Positions 35,398 to 47,469 of a stretch of 64,000 nucleotides of DNA are shown here, one piece after another (position 1 is the first letter of the stretch; every line of letters starts with the position of its first letter). The notes below the pieces were generated by a model. It did no database searches. It was not told where the DNA came from and was given only the letters and a program-made list of their open reading frames with translations. The DNA is from Neorhizobium sp. SHOUNA12A. GTDB lineage: Bacteria; Pseudomonadota; Alphaproteobacteria; Rhizobiales; Rhizobiaceae. The translations under genes were made by a program, and so were the position numbers. Location: positions 62,001 through 126,000 of the forward strand of contig NZ_JALBGV010000003.1 in the NCBI RefSeq assembly GCF_023006505.1. The letters run 5' to 3'.

Positions 35398-36243
35398 ATG
35401 GCCTCGCGCACTGCTTCCTCGAATTTCCTGAAGCTCGAATTTGTCCTCGGCGCCCTGCTGGTCGGCGTGATCGGCCTTGCCGTCATCTTCTCCGGCGTGA
35501 TCTTTCCCGGCGGCGCCGACAAGATCGACCTGATGTCGCGCCTCGTGCCACCCTTCGTCAGGCCGGCACATGTCTTCGGCACCGACCCGCTCGGGCGCGA
35601 CGTGCTTGCGCGCGTCATGGCCGGCGGCAAGATCTCGCTTCTGGTCGGCTTCGTCTCCGTCGCCGGCGGCGTCACGATAGGTGTCTTCATGGGCCTGATC
35701 GCCGGTTATTACCGTGGCATCTGGGACATGCTGGTGATGCGTTTTGCCGATATCCAGCTGGCGCTCCCCTTCATCCTGCTCGCCATCACCTTCATCGCCA
35801 TCGTCGGTGGCGGGCTGACGAACACCATCATCCTGCTGATCGTCTCGCAATGGGTGCAATATGCCCGCCTGGTGCGCGGCTCTGTGCTGACGCTGCGCGA
35901 GCGCGAATTCATCCTTTCGGCCCGTGCCATCGGGGTCAAGAACTGGCGCATCATCGTCCAGCATCTGCTGCCCAACCTGATCGGCCCGGTCATCGTGCTG
36001 ATGACGCTCAACGTCGCCACCAACATCCTGCTCGAATCGAGCCTCACCTTCCTCGGCCTCGGCATCGATCCGACCATTCCGAGTTGGGGCGGCATGCTCG
36101 CCGAAGGCCGCACCTATCTGCAGACCGCCTGGTGGGTCAGCGTCTTCCCGGGCCTTGCCATCCTCCTCACCGTCCTTGGCCTCAACCTCCTCGGCGACTG
36201 GCTGCGCGACAGTCTCGATCCCACAGGCAGAACCTCCGCATGA
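35398..36243 (+). CDS. Peptide-type ABC importer permease (DppC-like)
   Basis: 281 residues. Contains HVFGTDPLGRDVLARVMAGGKISLLVGF, typical of DppC subunits, the EAA loop REREFILSARAIGVKNWRIIVQHLLPNLIG and ESSLTFLGLGIDPTIPSWGGMLAEG. The ATG at 35398 is eight bases after GGAG; GTG at 35389, overlapping the dppB-like stop, is the alternative. Its stop overlaps the start of the peptidase gene (ATGA). Confidence 0.93.
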   Translation: MASRTASSNFLKLEFVLGALLVGVIGLAVIFSGVIFPGGADKIDLMSRLVPPFVRPAHVFGTDPLGRDVLARVMAGGKISLLVGFVSVAGGVTIGVFMGLIAGYYRGIWDMLVMRFADIQLALPFILLAITFIAIVGGGLTNTIILLIVSQWVQYARLVRGSVLTLREREFILSARAIGVKNWRIIVQHLLPNLIGPVIVLMTLNVATNILLESSLTFLGLGIDPTIPSWGGMLAEGRTYLQTAWWVSVFPGLAILLTVLGLNLLGDWLRDSLDPTGRTSA

Positions 36244-37976
36244 CACTGATCCACGAACAGCAGGTCGAGCGCACGCTCGATGCCCTCGTCGCACGTTTTT
36301 CCGGCACCAAGGGCACGAAGATCGAAGCCTGGGTTTTCGACGACGAGAAGAGCCGCAGGCAGGCCGAAGCGAAGCTCGCCGCCACCGGCGTCGAGGCGAA
36401 GTTCCGCAGCGCCTATAAGCCCCTGCTGCATTTCCTCCTCGAAGAGGTCGAGCTCGACAACCTCTCGGCCCTGCACATCGTTTATCCGGTTCACACGGCC
36501 TGCCCGAAAAACCGTTTCCTGCTCGAGGCCTATCCTCTGGCCGGTCTTGTAAACGAAGCGCGGCTGACCTTCGAAGCGGGGGCTGAAGATGCCTTTTACG
36601 CTCTGACGCTGACCGCAAAGGACGGCAGCACCGAAGCCCATAAGGTTTTTGCGCCGAACCGGCTCCACACCGATTTCATCGGCGAAACGCTGCTGTCGCC
36701 GACCGGCTGGCTGTGCCTCGACGGGGGGGCCGGCGAACGGCTGGAGACTGACTACGAGCTCCTGTTCTCCTCGGCCGTCGAAGCCATCGCGGCGCATGAT
36801 TGGGGGGCGACGGAGCCTTATTTCGACGAGCTCAACATCGCCGTCACCCTGCCGGCCGAAGACCGGCGTCTGGCCGTGGGCGAAGAGGCTGTCAGCCTGC
36901 GCGAGGCGCTGCACGAGGATTTCTATTTCTCGCTTCTCGAAGTCTTCCAGAAAAAGGCCGGCCGGCCGATCGGCGACCGCGGCCTGCAGCCGGGCCAGAT
37001 CATCCCGGAAATCCGCGACGGAGAAACCGTCTCCGTCCGCATCGAAACACGGGCACTGTGGACCTCCGAGGCCGTGACCGAGCCGCAGCGCCTTGCCTCC
37101 GCCGTGTCGCCGGTCTCGGTGGCGCAGATCCGCCGGGAACTCGCCGCGATCGATGGCGTCGCCTTCCAAGCCCTCTCGCGGACCGGCCGTGCCGTGGAGG
37201 CCCGCTATCACGCCGGCGGCGACAAACCCGTCATCATCAGCGGCGGCCAGCATGCCAACGAGACGACCGGCATCGTCGGGGCGCTGCGCGCCGCGCAGAC
37301 GCTTCACTCAAGGCCAAATTCGCATTTCGTCATCTCGCCGCTCGAAAATCCCGACGGTTATCAGGTGCATTGGCGCCTTCGCACTGACAACCCGCTGCAC
37401 ATGCATCATGCGGCGCGCTACACCGCGCTCGGCGACGATCTCGAATACCGCTCCGGCAAGGAGCTCTTCGAAAAGGCGATCCGCATCGAGGCGGAAAGCC
37501 TGAGCGGCGCCAAGCTGCACGTCAACCTGCACGGTTATCCCTCGCATGAATGGACGCGGCCGCTTTCCGGCTACGTGCCGCGCACATTCGCCATGTGGAC
37601 GGTGCCGAAGGGCTTTTTCCTCATCATGCGCCATCACGCCGAATGGACCGCTCAGGCGAAAATCCTGATCGACCGCGTCAGCCGCCACCTCGCCGCCATT
37701 CCCGGCCTCGTCGCCTATAACGCGGCCCAGATCAGGCTTTTCGAAACCCATGCCGGCGAGACCGGCTTCCGCATCATCAACGGTTTCCCCTGTCTGATCT
37801 CGATAGACGACCGCCACACGGTTCCGCTGACGCTGATCACCGAATATCCGGACGAAACCATCTATGGCTCGGCCTTCATCCAGGGTCACACGGCGCAGAT
37901 GGAGACCGTGCTTGCCGCCTATGATGCGATCCAGGCGATCGAGGAACCGGCCGCGAGCCCGCAACCTTCGGCATAG
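36240..37976 (+). CDS. M14-family zinc metallocarboxypeptidase with long N-terminal region
   Basis: 578 residues. The M14 catalytic part lies in the C-terminal half: SGGQHANETTGIVGALRAAQ gives the HxxE zinc pair (about residue 336), ISPLENPDGYQVHWRLR follows, and VNLHGYPSHEW (about 427) supplies the third zinc His. The first 300 residues match no domain I recognise and make the protein far longer than the ~300-residue core. No signal peptide, so it should act in the cytoplasm on what the ABC importer brings in. It is translationally coupled to the DppC-like gene by a four-base overlap. It could trim imported peptides or deacylate an amino-acid conjugate. Confidence 0.85.
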   Translation: MTLIHEQQVERTLDALVARFSGTKGTKIEAWVFDDEKSRRQAEAKLAATGVEAKFRSAYKPLLHFLLEEVELDNLSALHIVYPVHTACPKNRFLLEAYPLAGLVNEARLTFEAGAEDAFYALTLTAKDGSTEAHKVFAPNRLHTDFIGETLLSPTGWLCLDGGAGERLETDYELLFSSAVEAIAAHDWGATEPYFDELNIAVTLPAEDRRLAVGEEAVSLREALHEDFYFSLLEVFQKKAGRPIGDRGLQPGQIIPEIRDGETVSVRIETRALWTSEAVTEPQRLASAVSPVSVAQIRRELAAIDGVAFQALSRTGRAVEARYHAGGDKPVIISGGQHANETTGIVGALRAAQTLHSRPNSHFVISPLENPDGYQVHWRLRTDNPLHMHHAARYTALGDDLEYRSGKELFEKAIRIEAESLSGAKLHVNLHGYPSHEWTRPLSGYVPRTFAMWTVPKGFFLIMRHHAEWTAQAKILIDRVSRHLAAIPGLVAYNAAQIRLFETHAGETGFRIINGFPCLISIDDRHTVPLTLITEYPDETIYGSAFIQGHTAQMETVLAAYDAIQAIEEPAASPQPSA

Positions 37977-38029: not shown

Positions 38030-38030
38030 T

Positions 38031-38044
38031 GTTAAACGTTTAAC
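38031..38044. promoter_or_regulatory. LacI-family operator 1, GTTAAACGTTTAAC
   Basis: Perfect 14-base palindrome centred on CG, the classical form of LacI/GalR operators. It stands 27 bases before the lacI-type start codon. Confidence 0.8.
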
Positions 38045-38045
38045 G

Positions 38046-38059
38046 GTAAAACGTTTAAC
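38046..38059. promoter_or_regulatory. LacI-family operator 2, GTAAAACGTTTAAC
   Basis: Second copy, one base different from operator 1, with centres 15 bases apart. The pair probably blocks the promoter of the whole operon, giving autoregulation of the repressor. Confidence 0.75.
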
Positions 38060-38071
38060 AGTGAGGCTGCG

Positions 38072-39172
38072 GTGTCCCGCAAACGTGCAACGCTCAAGGA
38101 AGTCGCCGAACGTGCAGGCGTTTCGATCGCCACCGTGTCGAACGTTTTCAGCGGCCGCAAGCCGGTGAACGACGATCTGCGCGAGAAGGTCGAGCAGGCT
38201 GCGAAGGACCTGTCCTTCCAGATCGACCGCGCCGCTTCGCAGCTGAAATCCGGCAAGGCCCGGGTGGTCGGCGTCCTCGTGCCGGATCTGGACGACACGT
38301 TCTTCACCTCGCTCATCTCGCGCATCGAGGTGATGGCATTGAAGGACGGTTACGACGTCATCGTCGCGAGCTCGCGAGACGACCGGCAACTGGAGGAATC
38401 CAGGCTGCAGACGCTGCTCGGCTGGCGGCCTTCGGGCATTATCGCCGTGCCCTGCTCCGATACGATACCGGCAGCACTTGCCCGCGAAGTTGGGCATCTG
38501 CCGACCGTGCTCGTCGACCGTGTGATCCCGCAATCGGCCGCCGCCGATACGGTGACGATCGACAATTTCGAGGCGGGAGAAATCGCCGGCCGTTATCTCG
38601 TCGAGATGGGCCATACCGATATCGTGCTTGCCGCCTCGCATCTCGATATCGCGCCGATCCGCGAGCGTGTCCGCGGCGCGACGTCGATCGTGCGCGAGAT
38701 GATCGGCCGCGAGCCCGTGGCGATCGCGCTCGGCTCCAATGCCGAACGGGGCGCCGAAATCTTCGCCCACTGGCTCGAACGCCATCCTTTGCCTTCGGCG
38801 GTCTTTGCCCTGACCAACGTCACCACGCTTGCGGTCCTCACCGCGCTCGCAAGGCAGCGGATCGACATTCCCGACCAGGTCTCGATCATCGGCTTCGACG
38901 ACTACACATGGATGAGCGCCCGCAAGACGGCCCTGACCGCGATCCGGCAGCCGGTCGACGGGATCGCCCACCTTGCCTGGGAACGGCTGCAGAAGCGCAT
39001 GCGGGGCGATGCCTCGGCGCCGTCGCCGAGCATTCTCAACACCAGCCTTCAGGTCCGGGATTCGACCCGCCGCCTCGTGTCACCGCCCGTGGAGGGGCTT
39101 CTGAAAGTTGTGGAGGAACAGCCGGCCGATACGCCGGACAAGGTCAAGGAGCGACCGAACCGCATCCACTAG
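38072..39172 (+). CDS. LacI-family transcriptional regulator
   Basis: 366 residues. The helix-turn-helix and hinge are ATLKEVAERAGVSIATVSNVFSGRKPVNDDLREKVEQAAKDL (5-50). The periplasmic-binding-like sensor domain has VVGVLVPDLDDTFFTSLISRIE, PTVLVDR and VSIIGFDDYTWMS. Start is GTG at 38072. It is the first gene of a long co-directional operon (importer, FAD enzyme, dehydrogenase, kinase), with twin operators right before it. The ligand is probably the imported sugar or polyol or its product. An unusually polar 40-residue tail follows the sensor domain. Confidence 0.94.
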   Translation: MSRKRATLKEVAERAGVSIATVSNVFSGRKPVNDDLREKVEQAAKDLSFQIDRAASQLKSGKARVVGVLVPDLDDTFFTSLISRIEVMALKDGYDVIVASSRDDRQLEESRLQTLLGWRPSGIIAVPCSDTIPAALAREVGHLPTVLVDRVIPQSAAADTVTIDNFEAGEIAGRYLVEMGHTDIVLAASHLDIAPIRERVRGATSIVREMIGREPVAIALGSNAERGAEIFAHWLERHPLPSAVFALTNVTTLAVLTALARQRIDIPDQVSIIGFDDYTWMSARKTALTAIRQPVDGIAHLAWERLQKRMRGDASAPSPSILNTSLQVRDSTRRLVSPPVEGLLKVVEEQPADTPDKVKERPNRIH

Positions 39173-39223
39173 GCGTCGGGCAAGAACGCCAGTCAAAGAC
39201 TACGCTCGCATGGGAGGAGCATT

Positions 39224-40099
39224 TTGCGTTTGAACAAGATCACCGAGGTCGTGCCATTCCTGGCGCCGGTACAGATACTGATCCTCAGTGTCATCGTCAT
39301 ACCGTCGTTTTATGTCGTATGGCTCAGCCTGCATGCCTCCAGTTTCGGGCAGTCCGCGACTTTCGTGGGCCTTCAGAACTATATCAAGGTGCTGACCGAT
39401 CCGGCCTTCCTGCTGGCGCTCGGCAACACCGTCCTCATCGTCATCTTCGCAGTCCATCTGGAACTGGCGCTCGGGCTTGGAATGGCGCTGCTGTTTGCAA
39501 GCGGCCTGCCGTGCCGGCGCGTTCTCCTTGTTGCGGTCCTGGCGCCCTATGCCGTCAGCGAAGTCATCGCCGTCGCCATGTGGCGTTTCCTGTTCGATCC
39601 GGATGTCGGTCCGGTCACCGCCATGCTGACATGGCTCGGGCTGCCGATGCTCGACTGGTCCTTCGAGCCGTCTCACGCGCTGATCATGATCGGCCTGCTG
39701 ACCATCTGGCTGCACCTGCCCTTCACCTTCATCATTCTTTATGCGGCGCGCCTGGCGATCCCGAAGGATCTCTACGAGGCGGCCCGCATCGACGGCGCCA
39801 AACCTTTCGATGCCTTCCGCCGCGTGACGATACCGCTGCTCGGGCCGGCGATCGTCGTGGCGCTGCTGTTCCGCTATATCTTCGCCTTCCGCATCTTCTC
39901 GGAAGTCTGGCTGATGACCCAGGGCGGGCCTGCCCGTTCGACGGAGGTCGTCGCGGTCTATCTCTATCAGGAGGCGTTCAGCTTCAACGCCTTCGGCACG
40001 GCGGCCGCCACCGCCTGGATCATGGTGCTCGCGTCGCTGCTTCTGGCGACCGGTTATGTCTTCCTCCTTCGCAAGCAGGTGGCCGGCAATGCGCACTGA
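39224..40099 (+). CDS. Sugar ABC importer permease (MalF/UgpA type)
   Basis: 291 residues and six helices, the first VQILILSVIVIPSFYVVWLSL. The conserved cytoplasmic loop is LYEAARIDGAKPFDAFRRVTIPLLGPAI (EAA motif, about 180-210). It starts with TTG at 39224 after GGGAGGAGCAT. Overlaps the next permease by eleven bases. Forms the channel with it, energised by the ATPase at 43953-45014. Confidence 0.93.
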   Translation: MRLNKITEVVPFLAPVQILILSVIVIPSFYVVWLSLHASSFGQSATFVGLQNYIKVLTDPAFLLALGNTVLIVIFAVHLELALGLGMALLFASGLPCRRVLLVAVLAPYAVSEVIAVAMWRFLFDPDVGPVTAMLTWLGLPMLDWSFEPSHALIMIGLLTIWLHLPFTFIILYAARLAIPKDLYEAARIDGAKPFDAFRRVTIPLLGPAIVVALLFRYIFAFRIFSEVWLMTQGGPARSTEVVAVYLYQEAFSFNAFGTAAATAWIMVLASLLLATGYVFLLRKQVAGNAH

Positions 40100-40922
40100 C
40101 AAGCTCGCCATCGGCCTTGGAAAAACAGTCGCGGTCGCGGTCATCCTCGTCTGGTCGCTGTTTCCGATCGCCTTCCTCGTTTTGTCGTCGTTCAAGCCCG
40201 GCCAGGACATTTTCGCCGTGCCGCCGAAACTCGTCTTTTCGCCGACAGTGCAGCACTATGTCGAACTCTGGAACGGCTGGGGCGTGTTCTTTTCCGGACT
40301 TCTGAACAGCACCATCATCACTGCCGGTGCGACCATCATCGCGATCACCACCAGCACGGCGGCGGGTTACGTCTACTCGCGCTATAGCAGCCGGATGCTG
40401 GATGCGAGCGTGATGTTCCTGATCATCGTGCGCCTCATTCCGCCGATCGTGGTGACGCTGCCGCTGTTTCCGATCATCAACGCGATCGGCCTCAACGACA
40501 CGCATATCGTGCTGATGGTGCTTTACGCGACCTTCTTCGTGTCGCTCGGCACGGTGCTGATGCGCACCTTCATCGACCAGATTCCGCGTGAACTCGACGA
40601 AGCGGCCCAGATCGATGGCGCCAAGCGGCTGACGATCTTAAGGCGCGTCATCGTGCCGCTCGCGGCACCCGGCATTCTCGCGGTCGCCGTCTTCGTCGTC
40701 GTCTTTGCCTGGAATGAGTTCCTGTTCGCCTTCATCTTCACCGCGACCAAGGCCAAGACCGCACCGCTGGTGATCTCCGAAATGATCGGATCGATCGACG
40801 GCGTCGACTGGGGCGTGCTGTTTGCGGCGTCCACCGTCCAGCTCATACCGGTTCTGCTCTTCGTCATCTTCATGAACCGCTATCTCGTGGCCGGCCTCAC
40901 CGCCGGCGCGACCAAGGGTTAG
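40089..40922 (+). CDS. Sugar ABC importer permease (MalG/UgpE type)
   Basis: 277 residues. N-terminal helix VAVAVILVWSLFPIAFLVLSSFKPGQDIFAVPP, typical of the second permease, and EAA loop LDEAAQIDGAKRLTILRRVIVPLAAPGI (about 170-200). Start ATG 40089 lies inside the end of the previous gene, as is usual in these pairs. Confidence 0.93.
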   Translation: MRTDKLAIGLGKTVAVAVILVWSLFPIAFLVLSSFKPGQDIFAVPPKLVFSPTVQHYVELWNGWGVFFSGLLNSTIITAGATIIAITTSTAAGYVYSRYSSRMLDASVMFLIIVRLIPPIVVTLPLFPIINAIGLNDTHIVLMVLYATFFVSLGTVLMRTFIDQIPRELDEAAQIDGAKRLTILRRVIVPLAAPGILAVAVFVVVFAWNEFLFAFIFTATKAKTAPLVISEMIGSIDGVDWGVLFAASTVQLIPVLLFVIFMNRYLVAGLTAGATKG

Positions 40923-40961
40923 TCACCAGGGTTATTCAACTGTCTGCAAGGGAGGGAAATC

Positions 40962-42257
40962 ATGTCAGACAAATCGCTTACCAACATCACACGGCGCGGC
41001 TTCTTAGGCACCGCGATGGGAGGAGCGGCGATGCTCGCCGCAGGGCCGTCGTTTGCGGCGGGCAAGACGCTCAACGTCTTGAGCCACAAGGTGCACCAGA
41101 CGGTGCTCGGCACCGGCGACGGTGACCTGCTCAAGGACTGGCGCGCGACAAACGATGCAGACGTCGTCTGGACGACGTTCGATTCCAATCCGCTGCAGGA
41201 TCGCCTGTTCCGCGAGGCGAGCCTCAGCGCTACCGATTTCAATGTCGGTTACATCGTCGACAATCGCCCGACCAAGCAGATCGCCGCGATGTTCGAGCCG
41301 CTCGATGCCTATCTCAAGAAGGATGCCATCGAGGACTTCGGCGATATCGCACCGGGCCTCGTGCAAGGCATGACCGTCGACGGCAGACTGATCGGCATTC
41401 CGGTCCGCCACGCGACCCAAGGCCTCTTCTATAACGAAGCGCTCCTCGAAGAGCAGGGCATCACCGCGCCGCCGACGACGCTCGAAGAACTGGTGGAGCA
41501 GGCCCAGAAGCTTACCTTCACCTCCAAGGCCGGCACGCCGGTCGCCGGCATGGTGCTGGCAAGCGACCTCGCCGTCTTCCCGGTCATGTTCGCCCGCGCC
41601 TTCGGCGGCGATTTCATCAACGCCAAGTTCGAACTGCTGCCGAATCCAGAGGCCATGGAAAAGGGCCTGACCATCCTTCGCAAGATGTTCGAGGGCGGCG
41701 CCCTGCCGCGCAGCTACGCGACCACCAAAAACGACGACCAGGTGACCTGGCTGCAGCAGGGCCGCGCCGCCTTCACCGTGCTGCCCTTCGCGCGCTTCGC
41801 TCAACTCAACAACAAGGAACAGAGCAAGTACCCCGGCAAGATCAAGGCGATCGAATTCCCGATCTCGGCGGGCCTCAAGGGCAAGATGCCGATGTCCTCG
41901 ATCGTCGAGGCCTGGGGCATGGTCATCCCCGCGAACTCCAAGGACAAGGACCTGTCCTGGAAGTTCATCAAGGAAGTCTCCAGCAAGCGCGCCACGCTCG
42001 GCATGGCCAAGAATGGCAATGGCCCGGTCCGCGTCTCCACCTATGCAGACCAGTCCTTCGCCGCGAACAGCCCGGTCGCCGCCGTCGAGGCCGCGGTGCT
42101 GAAGAATGCTCGCGGCGCCTTCCCGCCCTTCCCCGAAGCGGCACGCGCCCAGTCGATCTTCCTGGAGGAAGTCCAGCTCGCTGTCCTCGGCCGCAAGGAG
42201 GTCAAGGAAGCAGTGGCCTCGATCGCCACGCGCGTGAAGCCCCTGCTTCAGGCCTGA
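40962..42257 (+). CDS. Sugar ABC importer substrate-binding protein, Tat-exported
   Basis: 431 residues, extracellular solute-binding protein family 1. The N-terminus NITRRGFLGTAMGGAAMLAAGPSFA has the twin-arginine motif RRGFLG, so it is probably folded before export by Tat. Core patterns include AMFEPLDAYLKKD, IPVRHATQGLFYNEALLEEQGI, PPTTLEELVEQAQKL and a C-terminal WKFIKEVSS. It selects the carbohydrate of the operon, which I cannot name from sequence. Ribosome site GGGAGGG. A GC-rich hairpin follows the stop at 42272-42296. Confidence 0.92.
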   Translation: MSDKSLTNITRRGFLGTAMGGAAMLAAGPSFAAGKTLNVLSHKVHQTVLGTGDGDLLKDWRATNDADVVWTTFDSNPLQDRLFREASLSATDFNVGYIVDNRPTKQIAAMFEPLDAYLKKDAIEDFGDIAPGLVQGMTVDGRLIGIPVRHATQGLFYNEALLEEQGITAPPTTLEELVEQAQKLTFTSKAGTPVAGMVLASDLAVFPVMFARAFGGDFINAKFELLPNPEAMEKGLTILRKMFEGGALPRSYATTKNDDQVTWLQQGRAAFTVLPFARFAQLNNKEQSKYPGKIKAIEFPISAGLKGKMPMSSIVEAWGMVIPANSKDKDLSWKFIKEVSSKRATLGMAKNGNGPVRVSTYADQSFAANSPVAAVEAAVLKNARGAFPPFPEAARAQSIFLEEVQLAVLGRKEVKEAVASIATRVKPLLQA

Positions 42258-42271
42258 ACATTTGTGAAGAC

Positions 42272-42296
42272 CGTCCGGGCGCCAGCCGCCCGGACG
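42272..42296. terminator. Intra-operon hairpin after the binding-protein gene
   Basis: CGTCCGGGCG and CGCCCGGACG form a perfect ten-base stem around CCAGC, 14 bases past the stop. The next gene continues in the same direction, so it is more likely a message-stabilising or attenuating element than a full terminator. Confidence 0.65.
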
Positions 42297-42366
42297 TCGG
42301 ATATCGCCGAAATTAGCATGATTGATGCGGGACCCTGAAGGTCCATCCACGAAAGAGACAAGGACA

Positions 42367-43800
42367 ATGTTGAACACCACCAGTCGATCGATCCAGGAGC
42401 CCGCCCGGGCAACCCCCATCATGGCGGAATATGACGTGCTCGTTATCGGCGGCGGACCGGCCGGCCTGACCTCGGCGCTCGCCGCCGCGGAAGACGGGCT
42501 TCGGGTGGGACTTATCGAAAGCCGCAGCTTCGTCGGCGGCAACATGACCATCGGCCTTCCGGTCCTCGGTTTCCTCGGCCAGAAGGGCAACCAGATCATC
42601 GAAGGCCTGCCACAGAAATTCATCGACCGCCTCAAGGCACGCGACGGCGCCAGCGAACACCGGCCCTGCCCGCTCCACATGGGCATCACGCTGGTCGAAC
42701 CGGAAGCAGTGAAGACCGTGGCGCTCGAAATGCTGACGGAAGCGGGCGTCGAGGTGCTGTTTTACACCTTCTGCGCCGGCGTCGTGATGGACGGCGACAT
42801 GATCCGCGGGGTCATCACCGAGAGCAAGAGCGGCCGCGGCGCGATCCTCGGCAAGGTCGTCATCGACTGCACCGGTGACGCGGACGTCGCCTATCGCGCC
42901 GGCGTCCCCTGCGAGAAGGGCAACGAAAATGGCGGCATGCAGCCGCCAACGCTGATGTTCTGCATAGCCGGCGTCGATACCGAAAAGCTGCGCCTCAGCA
43001 TCGCCAACCAGCCGCCACAGGCACGCACCTATCTCACCGACTTCATCCCGGCGGAGTATTTCGGTCAGAACAATCAGTTCATCGTGGTTGGCCTGCGCGA
43101 GCTGATCATCAAGGCGGAGGCCGAGATGGGTCTGAAGATCGCCAATGAACGCACGATCATCATCACCGGCCTGAAGGCCGGCGAAGTCTGGATCAACATG
43201 ACCCGCGTCAAGGGCGTCGATGGGACGGATGCATCCAGCCTCACGATGGGCGAAATCGAGGCCCGCGGCCAGATCGACGACATCGTCACCTACCTGATCA
43301 ACTACGTCCCGGGTTTCGAGAAGGCCTATTTCACCAAGACGGCGCCTTTCCTCGGCATCCGCGAAACACGCCGGATCATCGGCGAATATGTGATGAACCA
43401 GGAGGACGTGCTCGGCTGCCGCCATTTCGACGACTCGATTGCCGTTGCCAGCTATCCGATCGACATCCACCGCCCTGCCGACGACGGCTGCACGCTGATC
43501 TGGTGCGGCGACTGCTACGACATTCCTTACCGCTCTCTCATCCCAACCAAGGTCAGCAACCTGATCGTCGCAGGCCGGGCGATTTCCACCACCCATGAGG
43601 CTATGGGCGCGATCCGCGTCATGGCGACCTGCATGGCGATGGGCGAAGCGGCAGGGCGGGCGGCAAAGATCTCGGTGCGCAGCAACCGCGCGCCGGCCGA
43701 TATCGACGTCAAGGAACTCCGCCGCCAGCTGATCGCCAAGGGCGCCTATCTGCGCGTCAAGGACAGCACCGAGCGCGCAAGGGAACTGGAAGACGCCTGA
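42367..43800 (+). CDS. FAD-dependent oxidoreductase (FAD_oxidored type)
   Basis: 477 residues. A Rossmann FAD motif lies near residue 25 (YDVLVIGGGPAGLTSALAAAEDGLRVGLIE), followed by GGNMTIGLPVLGFLG and a second FAD-contact region VVIDCTGDADVAYRAG. The C-terminal FAD stretch is NLIVAGRAISTTHEAMGAIRVMATCMAMGEAAGRAA. Proteins of this family are described mainly by fold; few have a known substrate. It lies inside a carbohydrate operon between the binding protein and the ATPase, so oxidation of the imported compound is the simplest guess. Start ATG 42367 has AAGGAC upstream; ATG 42421 would trim 18 residues. Confidence 0.85.
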   Translation: MLNTTSRSIQEPARATPIMAEYDVLVIGGGPAGLTSALAAAEDGLRVGLIESRSFVGGNMTIGLPVLGFLGQKGNQIIEGLPQKFIDRLKARDGASEHRPCPLHMGITLVEPEAVKTVALEMLTEAGVEVLFYTFCAGVVMDGDMIRGVITESKSGRGAILGKVVIDCTGDADVAYRAGVPCEKGNENGGMQPPTLMFCIAGVDTEKLRLSIANQPPQARTYLTDFIPAEYFGQNNQFIVVGLRELIIKAEAEMGLKIANERTIIITGLKAGEVWINMTRVKGVDGTDASSLTMGEIEARGQIDDIVTYLINYVPGFEKAYFTKTAPFLGIRETRRIIGEYVMNQEDVLGCRHFDDSIAVASYPIDIHRPADDGCTLIWCGDCYDIPYRSLIPTKVSNLIVAGRAISTTHEAMGAIRVMATCMAMGEAAGRAAKISVRSNRAPADIDVKELRRQLIAKGAYLRVKDSTERARELEDA

Positions 43801-43952
43801 CCGCAAACCGGCAGGCCCGGCGGTGCACGCTGCCGGGAATGGGATGGTTTGGAACGTTTGTTTTGCCCACAGGCGGACCGTGGGCGACGGGTGCGGTCCG
43901 GTGGCTTGTCCGCCGGTGCCGTGCTCGAAGATTTCAAGGAAAGTGAGGAAGC

Positions 43953-45014
43953 ATGGCAAGTTTGCGTCTGGCCGGGCTCAAGAAGAGTTTTGGCGCGGTG
44001 GATATCATCAAGGGCGTCAACCTCGAGATCAAGGACGGCGAATTCGTGGTGTTTGTCGGGCCTTCCGGCTGCGGCAAGTCCACGCTGCTGCGGATGATCG
44101 CGGGTCTCGAAGACATATCCGGCGGCGAGCTTTATATCGGCGACCGGCTCTGCAACGAGGTGCAGCCGCGCGAGCGCGGGATCGCCATGGTATTCCAGTC
44201 CTATGCGCTTTATCCGCATATGACCGTCTACGACAACATGGGCTTCGGGCTTTCCCTGAACAAGACGCCGAAACCCGAGCTCGATGCGCGGGTGCGCGAG
44301 GCGGCCCGTATCCTGAAGATGGAGCATCTGCTGGAGCGCAAGCCGAGCCAGCTTTCCGGCGGCCAGCGCCAGCGCGTCGCCATCGGCCGGGCGATCGTGC
44401 GCAAGCCCGGTGTCTTCCTGTTCGACGAACCGCTTTCGAACCTTGACGCAGCACTTCGCGTGGACATGCGCATGGAGCTTGCCAAGCTGCATCGCGACCT
44501 GGGGGCGACGATGATCTACGTCACCCACGACCAGATCGAAGCGATGACGCTTGCCGACAAGATCGTCGTGCTCGACGGCGGCCTGGTGCAGCAGGTCGGC
44601 TCGCCGATGGAACTCTACAAGAACCCGGCAAACAAGTTCGTGGCAGGCTTTATCGGTGCGCCGAAGATGAATTTCCTGCCCGTGAAGGTGCAGTCGGTCG
44701 CCGGCGATACTGCGATGGTCGCCTCCGATACGATGTCCCCGATCCCGGTCAAGGGAAGAGGCTTTTCGGTTGGTGATCCGGCTTGGCTCGGGATCAGGCC
44801 GCAATTCCTGAAACCTGGCCCGCCGACGGACGGCGAAGGAGCTCTTCGCGGGCGCATTGCGCTGGTCGAGCGTCTGGGAACCGAGACGATCATCGCGGTC
44901 GATACCGCCGAAAACGAGCGCGTGGTCGCCGCAATCCCGGTGGATGTGGAACTGGCGTTCGGGGATGCCGCCGAGTTTCAGTTCAACCCGCAGGCTGCGC
45001 ATCTGTTTCACTGA
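43953..45014 (+). CDS. Sugar ABC importer ATP-binding protein (MalK/UgpC type)
   Basis: 353 residues. Walker [10 protein letters not shown] (about 37), Q-loop [16 protein letters not shown], signature [15 protein letters not shown], Walker [13 protein letters not shown] and switch His [13 protein letters not shown]. The C-terminal third is the OB-fold/TOBE domain ([22 protein letters not shown]) of carbohydrate importers. Preceded by GTGAGGAAGC. Drives the permeases at 39224-40922. Confidence 0.95.
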
Positions 45015-45100
45015 TCGGGGCACAAGCCAAGCCGGGCCACGGCAATCGGCTCCAACGCGGCTCCCATACCGACTGTAATAATATTGAAGCAAGGAACGAC

Positions 45101-45829
45101 ATGAGACAGGATCTTTCCGGAAAGGTGGCCGCAGTGACCGGTGCGGCGTCGGGCATCGGCCTCGAATGCGCCCGAGCCCTGTTGGCCGAAGGCGTCAGCG
45201 TCGCACTTGTCGACAGGGCGGGCGATACGCTCGATAAGCTATGCTCTGAACTGGGGCCGAACGCCTTTCCGCTGGCGATCGATCTGACCGATTCCTCCAG
45301 CGTCGCAACGATGATGCCGCGCATCCTCGACCGGTTCGGCAAGCTCGATATCTTCCACGCCAATGCCGGCGCCTATATCGGCGGAGAGGTGGTCGAGGGC
45401 GACCCGGATGCCTGGGACCGCATGCTCAATCTCAACATCAATGCCGCCTTCCGTTCCGTCCAGGCCGTGCTGCCGCATATGGTCGAGCGCAAGACCGGCG
45501 ACATCATCATGACCAGCTCGATTGCCGGCCTGGTGCCGGTCGTCTGGGAGCCGATCTACACCGCCTCCAAACATGCGGTGCAGGCGTTCGTTCACACCGT
45601 GCGGCGCCAGGTCGCCAGACACGGCATCCGCGTCGGCGCGGTCGCACCCGGGCCTGTCATCACCGCATTGATCAGCGATTGGCCCCAGGCGAAACTCGAT
45701 GAGGCGATCGCGGCGGGAGGTTTGATGGAGGCGACGGAAGTCGCCGAAGCCGTGATGTTCATGCTCTCGAGACCCCGCAACATCACTATTCGCGATCTCG
45801 TCATTTTGCCTCTCAGCACGGATCTCTAG
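45101..45829 (+). CDS. Short-chain dehydrogenase, ribitol 2-dehydrogenase-like
   Basis: 242 residues, classical [11 protein letters not shown] cofactor motif (about 13-20), NAG in [12 protein letters not shown], catalytic Ser in [10 protein letters not shown] and YTASK giving Tyr-xxx-Lys (about 152-156). [35 protein letters not shown] resembles ribitol dehydrogenases, which make D-ribulose. The FGGY kinase starts two bases after its stop, and a ribulokinase would take that product on, so a pentitol is the likely substrate (inference). Start ATG 45101 follows AAGGAAC. Confidence 0.85.
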
Positions 45830-45831
45830 TC

Positions 45832-47469
45832 ATGACCCGCTTCTTTATCGGCATCGATGTGGGAACAGGCAGCGCGCGGGCCGGCGTGTTCGATGAAGCC
45901 GGGACGCTGCTGGCATCCGCCAAACGCCCGATCACCATCTGGCACGAGCCCGGCAATATCGTCGAGCAATCCAGCCGACAGATATGGCAGGCGGTCTGCG
46001 AGAGCGTCCGGGAAGCCGTCGGTTCTGCCCGTATCCCGCTGTCGGCGGTTGCGGGAATAGGTGTCGACGCGACCTGCTCGCTGGTCGTCGTCAACGCTGA
46101 CGGGATGCCGGTCTCGGTCAGCCCCTCGGGAGAGGCCGACCGCAATGTCATCGTCTGGATGGATCACCGCGCCGCCGGCGAGGCGGCCGAGATCAACGGC
46201 AGGCGGCACGAGGTCCTGCGTTATGTCGGGGGCAAAATTTCGCCGGAGATGGAAACGCCGAAGCTTCTCTGGCTGAAGCGCAACCTGCCACGATCGTTTG
46301 CCGATGCCGGACATTTCTTCGATCTCGCCGACTATCTGACCTTTCGCGCGACAGGATCGCTCAGCCGGTCGGCCTGCACGGTCACCTGCAAATGGACCTA
46401 TCTCGCCCATGAGAAGCGCTGGGACGGCCAGTACTTCAGGGCGATTGGCCTTGGAGAACTCGCCGACGAAGGCTTCAAGCGGATCGGAACCGACATCGTC
46501 GATCCGGGAACGCCGGTTGCAGACGGCCTGACGGAACAGGCCGCTGCCGATCTCGGCCTGAGGCCGGGAACCCCTGTCGGTGCAGGCCTGATCGACGCCC
46601 ATGCGGGCGGCATCGGCACGCTCGGCGGTCAAGATCCAGAAGGCCGCGCAGACGTTCGAAACAGGCTCGCCTATATTTTCGGGACATCCGCCTGTTCCAT
46701 GGCCTCCAGCGACAATCCCGTGTTTGTCGATGGTGTATGGGGCCCCTATTATTCGTCGATGGTCCCTGGACTGTGGTTGACCGAAGGTGGCCAGTCGGCA
46801 GCCGGCGCTGCCATCGATCACCTGGTCACGATGCACCCGGCATCCGCTGAAGCGCGCTCCAGGGCCGAAGCCGACGGGATATCGCTCGTAAGCTGGCTCG
46901 ACCGCGAAGCGACGAGACTGCGTCCAAATCTCACCCAGGCCGTCGAACTTGCCGGCACCATCCACGTCCTGCCCGAATTCATGGGCAACCGGTCGCCGCA
47001 TGCGGACCCCGATGCGCGGGCCGTCATTGCGGGGCTCGGGCTGGAAACCGATATTGCCAGCCTGATCTCGCTGTTTGTCGCCGGGCTCTGCGGCATCGGT
47101 TACGGCCTCAGGCAGCTGCTGGACAAGCTGTCACAGAACGGCATGGCCTTCGACCTGATCATCGCCAGCGGTGGTGCCGCGCAAAGTCACCTCGTGCGGC
47201 AGATCCTGGCGGACACGACAAATCTGCCGGTGGCTGTCGCCGATACGGAGGAACCGGTCCTGCTCGGCAGCGCGATGCTTGGAGCCGCCGCCGGGGGCCG
47301 ATACGGATCGCTGCAGGAAGCCATGAGCGCGATGTCACGTCTCTCGACGGTCTACAGGCCGGCCGGAGGCACGGTCCGTCAAATGCACGATCACCGATAC
47401 CGCGCTTTTGGTCGGCTTCAGGAGATGGAACGGCAGATACGGTCAGATCGCAGAACGCTATCGTCTTGA
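45832..47469 (+). CDS. FGGY-family carbohydrate kinase, ribulokinase-like
   Basis: 545 residues. The N-terminal phosphate motif is FFIGIDVGTGSARAGVFDEAG. VIVWMDHRAAGEA (about 105) and GAGLIDAHAGGIGTLGG (about 245) line the sugar site, and the C-terminal ATPase half has GLCGIGYGLRQLLD and IIASGGAAQSHLVRQILAD. This length and pattern fit the FGGY branch that phosphorylates D-ribulose or related ketoses. Last gene of the LacI operon, two bases after the SDR. D-Ribulose 5-phosphate would feed the pentose phosphate pathway. The 5-carbon assignment rests on family and neighbour. Confidence 0.9.
   Translation: MTRFFIGIDVGTGSARAGVFDEAGTLLASAKRPITIWHEPGNIVEQSSRQIWQAVCESVREAVGSARIPLSAVAGIGVDATCSLVVVNADGMPVSVSPSGEADRNVIVWMDHRAAGEAAEINGRRHEVLRYVGGKISPEMETPKLLWLKRNLPRSFADAGHFFDLADYLTFRATGSLSRSACTVTCKWTYLAHEKRWDGQYFRAIGLGELADEGFKRIGTDIVDPGTPVADGLTEQAAADLGLRPGTPVGAGLIDAHAGGIGTLGGQDPEGRADVRNRLAYIFGTSACSMASSDNPVFVDGVWGPYYSSMVPGLWLTEGGQSAAGAAIDHLVTMHPASAEARSRAEADGISLVSWLDREATRLRPNLTQAVELAGTIHVLPEFMGNRSPHADPDARAVIAGLGLETDIASLISLFVAGLCGIGYGLRQLLDKLSQNGMAFDLIIASGGAAQSHLVRQILADTTNLPVAVADTEEPVLLGSAMLGAAAGGRYGSLQEAMSAMSRLSTVYRPAGGTVRQMHDHRYRAFGRLQEMERQIRSDRRTLSS

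Follow-up and report, generated by a model that had tools for sequence, protein, structure and literature searches.

The 64,000-nucleotide stretch of DNA analysed here, hereafter the window, comes from the soil bacterium Neorhizobium sp. SHOUNA12A (contig NZ_JALBGV010000003.1, positions 62,001 to 126,000), whose genome is 6.56 Mb. It carries an operon in which an uncharacterised flavin adenine dinucleotide (FAD)-dependent oxidoreductase lies among the genes of an ATP-binding cassette (ABC) importer, a short-chain dehydrogenase/reductase (SDR) and a kinase of the FGGY family. An earlier note, made from the letters of the window, had described eight genes running in one direction within 38072-47469; all eight are there, on the + strand, and Pfam and NCBIfam concur with the labels of the note. 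The gene set and the direction given there are retained, while the order is refined to lacI, permease, permease, binding protein, FAD gene, ATPase, SDR and kinase. The nearest records in a plasmid collection are Neorhizobium megaplasmids, in which the flavoprotein has identities of 99.2, 99.0 and 94.7%. The features are as follows.

38030..38060, no strand: putative tandem LacI-type operator, two palindromes at 38030-38045 and 38045-38060
38072..39172, + strand: LacI-family regulator, first gene, GTG start; HTH and Peripla_BP_3 matches
39224..40099, + strand: ABC permease 1; BPD_transp_1
40056..40922, + strand: ABC permease 2; BPD_transp_1; 44-base overlap with permease 1 as called
40962..42257, + strand: substrate-binding protein with a twin-arginine signal; SBP_bac_1
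42367..43800, + strand: FAD-dependent oxidoreductase; PF12831; ATG at 42367 is the simplest start
43953..45014, + strand: ABC ATPase of the UgpC/MalK type; UgpC subfamily score 461, cut-off 432
45101..45829, + strand: SDR akin to ribitol and sorbitol 2-dehydrogenases; adh_short; ATG at 45101; YTASK motif by reading
45832..47469, + strand: FGGY pentulose kinase, D-ribulokinase type by family; TIGR01315

Profile scans find the parts by which a carbohydrate ABC importer is recognised, namely an SBP_bac_1 binding protein, two BPD_transp_1 permeases and a UgpC-type ATPase. Both residues of the twin-arginine pair, R11 and R12, are invariant in all 31 aligned binding proteins. The FGGY kinase scores 698 bits against TIGR01315, for which the curated cut-off is 408.7. 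The best solved relatives of the SDR, to which it is related over its full length, are chains named ribitol 2-dehydrogenase, in 9x6o (E 3.6e-106, residues 2-242) and 5jo9 (E 3e-89, residues 1-242). We take 5jo9 to be the Bradyrhizobium sorbitol dehydrogenase. The part of the literature consulted describes a Bradyrhizobium relative of the SDR as a sorbitol dehydrogenase (PMC12193009). Downstream of the kinase, on the opposite strand and convergent with it, lies a regulator that scores above the HutC cut-off, and the operon therefore ends at the kinase. The FAD gene is separated from the ATPase gene by 152 bases (43801-43952), which include a GC-rich stretch that is hairpin-capable by eye; the terminator scan has no entry there.

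The two palindromes of the putative operator, TGTTAAACGTTTAACG and GGTAAAACGTTTAACA, stand back to back with their centres 15 bp apart, 11 bases 5' of the GTG of lacI. The operator is expected 0.00 times, as estimated from 100 shuffles of the window. When one mismatch is allowed and both strands are read, the pattern occurs genome-wide only at these two sites, and a reversed control pattern has no occurrence in the genome. The exact core was also found 23-51 bases ahead of lacI in 30 of the 42 related loci that have an ABC transporter, and in none of the 38 remaining loci (see below). Direct inspection of 14 alphaproteobacterial loci found such a palindrome before lacI in 13, and a different palindrome in L024. 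Judged from its sites, the regulon of this operator looks like a single operon, so that it probably encodes every enzyme that the pathway requires in addition to central metabolism. The LacI-family regulator (38072..39172) is probably autoregulatory.

Conservation of the flavoprotein

The flavoprotein matches PF12831 (FAD_oxidored) with 418.4 bits, the cut-off being 27, over model positions 1-416 of 416. PF12831 has been named, in the portion of the literature seen, for a domain of the sarcosine oxidase alpha subunit. No signal peptide was seen by eye, and the protein is therefore probably cytosolic. When one genome was scanned for each species, 145 relatives were obtained, of which the best 80 were fetched and 65 were left out. 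The best 80 of 145 are 70-97% identical to the flavoprotein of the window, and their hosts are Alphaproteobacteria, Verrucomicrobiota, Bacteroidota, one acidobacterial bin and one bin labelled Williamsia (Actinomycetota). The flavoprotein of this last bin (L070) groups with Chitinophagaceae, within the Bacteroidota, and its contig is probably mis-binned.

The clade is well separated from other matches. Among 397 genomes sampled at the level of the order, the listed matches (E 1e-60 or better, in 27 genomes) are at most 41% identical, the own genome excepted. Clade members of at least 72% identity occur in 6 of 297 genomes sampled at the level of the family, the own genome counted; none of the 4 further genomes displayed under the same genus has one. 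Such members are found in 3 of 296 genomes of a Bacteroidota sample and in 2 of 288 of a Verrucomicrobiota sample, the centring genome being counted in each. One further Verrucomicrobiota genome has two intermediate flavoproteins, with identities of 58 and 62%.

Alignment of 81 flavoproteins has 187 invariant columns out of 476. Residues H97, R98, C100, P101, H103, C350, Y362, C374, D381, C382, H409 and E410 are identical in all 81 sequences; C379 is kept in 79, with a serine in the two others, and C198 is kept in 77. Of the cysteines, C350 occurs in one of 22 paralogues of 32-41% identity, and C100, C374, C379 and C382 occur in none of them. A metal or iron-sulphur centre might be bound by the clade-specific cysteines, of which three have the spacing C-x4-C-x2-C. 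A quick tree, in which the branches of the paralogues are very long, supports the unity of the clade with a value of 99. The flavoproteins cluster by phylum, with 4 label changes, which is the minimum possible; the Pseudomonadota form one side with a support of only 59, and L048 is basal.

The structure model of the flavoprotein has a mean pLDDT of 90.5. When compared with solved structures, the predicted model aligns to FixC (7koe_C) with a Z of 20.5 and a root mean square deviation of 4.0 over 305 residues, to FasV (8zop) with 20.4 and 4.3 over 317, and to a geranylgeranyl reductase-like protein (3oz2) with 20.3 and 3.8 over 301. No function follows from the fold, because many flavoproteins match the model about equally. 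Assigning a function by a sequence search of solved structures was abandoned, as the matches lay mostly in the nucleotide-binding part at the N-terminus (best E 3.6e-6, residues 18-58).

Exchanged partners in related loci

The 80 loci around these relatives could be described as two types. An ABC transporter is present in 42, all of them alphaproteobacterial, and the other 38 include only three alphaproteobacterial loci (L046, L049 and L052). In loci without annotation, neighbours were called as longest open reading frames and clustered by BLAST; presence was called by tblastn, because the GC-rich loci contain false open reading frames. Three loci cut by contig ends (L022, L031 and L068) and one cut by an insertion sequence (L018) were scored as misses in all counts out of 42. 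The order lacI, permease, permease, binding protein, FAD gene is kept in 41 of the 42 ABC-type loci, the exception being L048, which has no lacI. Because this five-gene order is kept and the operator is expected 0.00 times, the arrangement is not due to chance. The order 3' of the FAD gene varies: kinase-SDR in 12 loci, ATPase-SDR-kinase in 10, kinase-ATPase-SDR in 7 and other orders in 13.

The flavoprotein is also the most conserved protein of the ABC-type operons. Its median identity to the protein of the window, taken over matches of more than 45% identity and 85% coverage, is 83.3% (42 loci). The medians, also in per cent, are 78.4 for permease 2 (42 loci), 75.7 for permease 1 and for the binding protein (42 each), 72.9 for the SDR (36), 68.8 for the ATPase (25), 65.6 for LacI (41) and 58.2 for the kinase (33). 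The SDR is present in 36 and the kinase in 35 of the 42 loci. An ATPase homologue of at least 55% identity was found in 23, some of the others being cut by contig ends. In L017 a zinc-type dehydrogenase takes the place of the SDR, beside a kinase that is 61% identical to that of the window; this dehydrogenase reaches 198.7 bits against the scyllo-inosose dehydrogenase model, for which the cut-off is 450. L048 has a zinc dehydrogenase that is 73% identical to that of L017, and a xylulokinase-like kinase whose best model is XylB, below the cut-off.

By these sequence comparisons the flavoenzyme is not an accessory but the core of the system, since it is the most conserved protein while the dehydrogenase, of SDR or zinc type, and the kinase are exchanged. 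The top conservation and the kept order of the ABC-type loci also support the flavoprotein as an integral, conserved step rather than a chance passenger, in line with the interpretation of the earlier note. Another explanation, on which the same data bear, is that the locus is a plain ribitol or D-arabitol operon; the flavoprotein would then be an accessory, concerned with repair, with overflow or with some additional minor substrate. The SDR and the kinase alone would account for the conversion of ribitol to ribulose-5-phosphate. However, the flavoprotein is the protein that is best conserved and that survives exchange of the SDR, the kinase, the transporter and the regulator; moreover, no homologue of the SDR of the window of at least 50% identity was found beside the flavoprotein in the Bacteroidota loci. 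We therefore regard a plain pentitol operon as improbable. That the flavoprotein persists where the SDR is swapped or was not found locally is consistent with a compound other than plain ribitol.

Some ABC-type loci show further peculiarities. On a plasmid of Microvirga sp. VF16 (L010/L018), an IS6-family transposase directly follows the FAD gene, and the ATPase, the dehydrogenase and the kinase are missing from the flank. On a plasmid of Neorhizobium sp. EC2-8 (L011, 8986-10385), the annotation splits the flavoprotein into two overlapping pieces and has no gene entry at the expected place of the binding protein, in a gene table that omits pseudogenes; decay or a sequencing error could explain both. 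All three Devosia loci (L060, L061 and L063) have a gene of the nucleoside hydrolase family after the kinase (Pfam on L061).

The non-ABC loci have another set of neighbours. One family of major facilitator superfamily (MFS) transporters is present in 34 of the 38, and a phosphatase of the endonuclease/exonuclease/phosphatase (EEP) type in 26; the RR export motif is present in 22 of the 26 members of the EEP cluster. Calcineurin-like proteins (17 loci), 2-hydroxyacid dehydrogenases (14), histidine phosphatases (11), GDPD proteins (7) and phospholipase C-like proteins (2) also occur. An FGGY kinase was found in 20 of the 38. L047, L053, L058 and L082 have AraB-like kinases, at 63-68% identity to the L047 kinase, which itself scores above the ribulokinase cut-off of PRK04123. 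The two Sphingomonas loci have an SDR, two FGGY kinases, a class II aldolase and a protein of the haloacid dehalogenase (HAD) family. Fe-ADH_2 proteins lie near the flavoprotein in L082, L089 and L017, by Pfam in the first two, which also have HAD-family proteins there; these neighbours resemble araL-araM of the Bacillus arabinose operons.

The Verrucomicrobiota genome with the two intermediate flavoproteins (58 and 62%) offers an independent check through its operon L152. In one direction it encodes a zinc dehydrogenase, a ribulose-phosphate 3-epimerase-family protein, an FGGY kinase, a flavoprotein, an MFS transporter, the second flavoprotein and then a calcineurin-like phosphoesterase; upstream, on the other strand, are a PAP2-family gene and a gene that reads as LacI-like. 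The FGGY kinase is of the ribulokinase type and passes PRK04123, and the epimerase-family protein passes the PRK05581 subfamily cut-off (169.2, cut-off 165). Both flavoproteins keep C100, C350, C374 and C379; one is without C382 and one has an arginine at 198. Together with the D-ribulokinase-type enzyme of the window, the epimerase-family and ribulokinase-type genes indicate ribulose-5-phosphate as the product in two phyla. The earlier note had called a conversion of ribitol to ribulose-5-phosphate by the SDR and the kinase plausible, and the family matches, with these genes in a second phylum, support D-ribulose-5-phosphate as the end point of this pair.

The exported phosphatases suggest that the extracellular form of the substrate is phosphorylated in Bacteroidota and Verrucomicrobiota, where these enzymes would first strip off the phosphate. 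One explanation builds on them: phosphodiester-linked pentitols, for example poly(ribitol phosphate), would be scavenged, exported phosphodiesterases would free the polyol and the FAD enzyme would take a substituted pentitol. The frequency and the export motif of the EEP phosphatases fit this explanation, as do the calcineurin-like, GDPD, phospholipase C-like and type I phosphodiesterase proteins and the SusC/SusD-like partners (labelled by reading) in Bacteroidota and Verrucomicrobiota neighbourhoods. However, homologues of the exported phosphatases were not found in the ABC-type loci, except for one sulfatase-like match of 28% in L022; a free polyol requires no flavoprotein; and the exported enzymes could use other phosphoesters, their nearest solved relatives including a mannosyl-6-phosphatase. 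Scavenging of this kind, a sub-case of an alditol substrate, seems rather unlikely to us.

Candidate pathway and substrate

We favour, as somewhat more likely than not, a LacI-controlled, self-contained catabolic operon that leads from import through an essential FAD step, a dehydrogenase and a pentulokinase to ribulose-5-phosphate. The ABC transporter would import a polyhydroxy compound. The FAD oxidoreductase would then carry out a cytosolic oxidation, after import, that the pathway cannot do without. The polyol-type dehydrogenase, dependent on nicotinamide adenine dinucleotide and of either SDR or zinc type, would make or handle a pentulose, as its family suggests. Finally, the FGGY kinase would convert D-ribulose to D-ribulose-5-phosphate, for which its family and the epimerase-family gene of L152 argue. 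Of all this, the sequences themselves show the content and order of the genes, the operator, the conservation and the exchange of partners, and the reactions are deduced from them. An uncharacterised step of sugar breakdown is probably present.

Among the classes of substrate, an alditol or an alditol conjugate is ranked first, as a tentative choice that falls a little short of an even chance; it is favoured because of the SDR family and of the zinc dehydrogenases, which are sorbitol-dehydrogenase-like among others. An aldonate, which would be oxidised at C3 and would lose CO2 to give D-ribulose, is ranked second and is possible, though unlikely. What remains falls to a cyclitol or another compound. 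The earlier note had suggested a modified or oxidisable precursor as the imported compound. A compound other than plain ribitol is consistent with these data, since loci that have another dehydrogenase for the SDR, or in which none was found locally, still retain the flavoprotein; the unrecognised route of which the note spoke is no more than plausible.

With an aldonate, the FAD enzyme would be the unphosphorylated counterpart of 6-phosphogluconate dehydrogenase: after oxidation at C3 the beta-keto acid would lose CO2, D-ribulose would pass to the kinase, and the SDR or the zinc dehydrogenase would interconvert precursors. A pentulose kinase is the next enzyme that such a shunt would be expected to have. 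The MFS transporter of L072, the only member of its family tested, is closest, among solved structures, to the D-galactonate transporter (E 5.9e-35, as against 1.6e-12 for the next other molecule), and its best NCBIfam match is a galactonate-transporter model, below the cut-off (218.7, cut-off 395). Furthermore, two of the six paralogue neighbourhoods viewed, in Deinococcus and Pararhizobium, are sugar-acid-like. On the other hand, the SDR of the window is nearest to alditol rather than sugar-acid dehydrogenases, the alphaproteobacterial transporter is of a general sugar type, and no decarboxylase was seen, though perhaps none is required. We give this shunt a minor share of our belief. An equally speculative generalisation, from sequence comparison, is that the clade may be a new cytosolic sugar-acid/polyol oxidoreductase that serves an unphosphorylated oxidative route to D-ribulose, with lineage-specific transporters, dehydrogenases and kinases. 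If this is true, the route would parallel, with free sugars, the oxidative pentose phosphate shunt.

Several points weigh against the favoured catabolic operon, in which the FAD step is essential and ribulose-5-phosphate is the product. No activity or ligand was found in the open-licence literature for any member of the clade. The binding protein has at most 24% identity to the nearest solved folds, whose ligands are mixed sugars; its model (pLDDT 80.4) has a generic sugar-binding fold, and its ligand cannot be read from the model because many structures match at similar Z. Alditol 2-dehydrogenases can be promiscuous, according to the part of PMC12193009 consulted, which makes the assignment to ribitol insecure. 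The same genome encodes a second kinase, 45% identical, in an operon that is of the mannitol/arabitol type by reading, so the kinase family alone does not fix the substrate. L026 is without SDR and kinase, and L027 and L054 are without kinase. In 18 of the 38 non-ABC loci no FGGY kinase was found within flanks of up to 10 kb, some on short contigs, except for a distant one of 25% in L080; these loci may have a different pathway, or their kinase may be encoded in another part of the genome. The epimerase-family protein of L152 falls below the rpe equivalog cut-off (179.9, cut-off 212.6). Finally, the fourth phylum, the acidobacterial one, is represented by a single bin only.

Two further ideas were rejected. 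Breakdown of riboflavin to ribitol was suggested by the ribitol dehydrogenase beside a flavoprotein and by the phosphatases of the relatives, and nothing here ties PF12831 to riboflavin breakdown. The riboflavin system of Devosia is reportedly a two-component monooxygenase. As far as the consulted part of its description goes, a reconstituted riboflavin breakdown pathway frees ribose oxidatively (PMC12746152). An inositol route was suggested by the phosphatases and by the weak likeness of the L017 enzyme to scyllo-inosose dehydrogenase; no ring-cleaving enzyme is among the labelled genes, not every neighbour having been scanned.

Known systems and neighbouring genes

The locus is a carbohydrate operon of familiar type, and its novelty is the uncharacterised flavoenzyme at its core. 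A classical ribitol operon consists of a regulator, a permease, a dehydrogenase and a kinase, without a flavoprotein, whereas this operon contains a full-length PF12831 protein and an ABC importer. In the classical locus, as given in the portion of PMC12307932 available, the D-ribulokinase adjoins ribitol 2-dehydrogenase and a permease. The Klebsiella/Escherichia ribitol locus of the same source resembles ours in having a ribitol-dehydrogenase-like SDR beside an FGGY kinase of the D-ribulokinase type (PMC12307932), but here an ABC importer replaces the permease, and there are a LacI operator and an extra conserved flavoprotein. The Rbl system of Citrobacter rodentium likewise combines an ABC importer with a dedicated D-ribulokinase, for D-ribulose; it differs by an SBP_2-type binding protein and a KpsF-like isomerase, and the passages seen mention neither a dehydrogenase nor a flavoprotein (PMC12307932). 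The rhizobial locus for erythritol, adonitol and L-arabitol (mptABCDE, lalA-rbtABC, ery) shares pentitol import by an ABC transporter and genes for catabolism of adonitol and L-arabitol. It differs in that no PF12831 flavoprotein is named in the part of its description consulted, by which alone it was compared (PMC3599248).

Within the same genome, the second kinase (G000, contig C111:18248-19783, L131) lies in what looks like a smo-type polyol operon that, like the operon of the window, has an ABC sugar-type transporter and a polyol dehydrogenase beside this kinase of 45% identity. This operon differs by its SorC-like regulator and mannitol-dehydrogenase-like enzyme, both by reading, and no flavoprotein was seen in the stretch; a HAD protein is also encoded there. 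In the open-licence literature searched we recognised no operon of the composition found in the window, nor any carbohydrate catabolism with a PF12831 enzyme. For such enzymes this clade offers a favourable starting point: the operon is small, there is one operator, the binding protein can be screened, and distant phyla have independent versions, in which the key step is probably the same. An answer would probably give a reaction to an enzyme family that has no known part in sugar metabolism, and could show another way into ribulose-5-phosphate.

PF12831 paralogues stand beside sugar transporters in three of the six neighbourhoods viewed; of the other three, two are without a sugar transporter, and the last is a cluster of CoA type that includes an MFS gene. 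On a plasmid of Deinococcus aetherius (L134), a 35% paralogue lies in an ABC operon with an FGGY kinase, an SDR, a phosphotriesterase-family protein, a 2-keto-3-deoxy-6-phosphogluconate aldolase and a sugar isomerase, which is perhaps a second, parallel sugar route. In Pararhizobium and Shinella (L135 and L136) the paralogues follow a hypothetical protein and an ABC transporter. In Pararhizobium this hypothetical protein has an LVIVD-repeat match, and a four-carbon acid sugar kinase, PdxA and a sialidase-like protein are also neighbours. Upstream of the operon of the window, at 36240-37976, is a protein with a weak Peptidase_M14 match (22.7 bits, cut-off 21.6).

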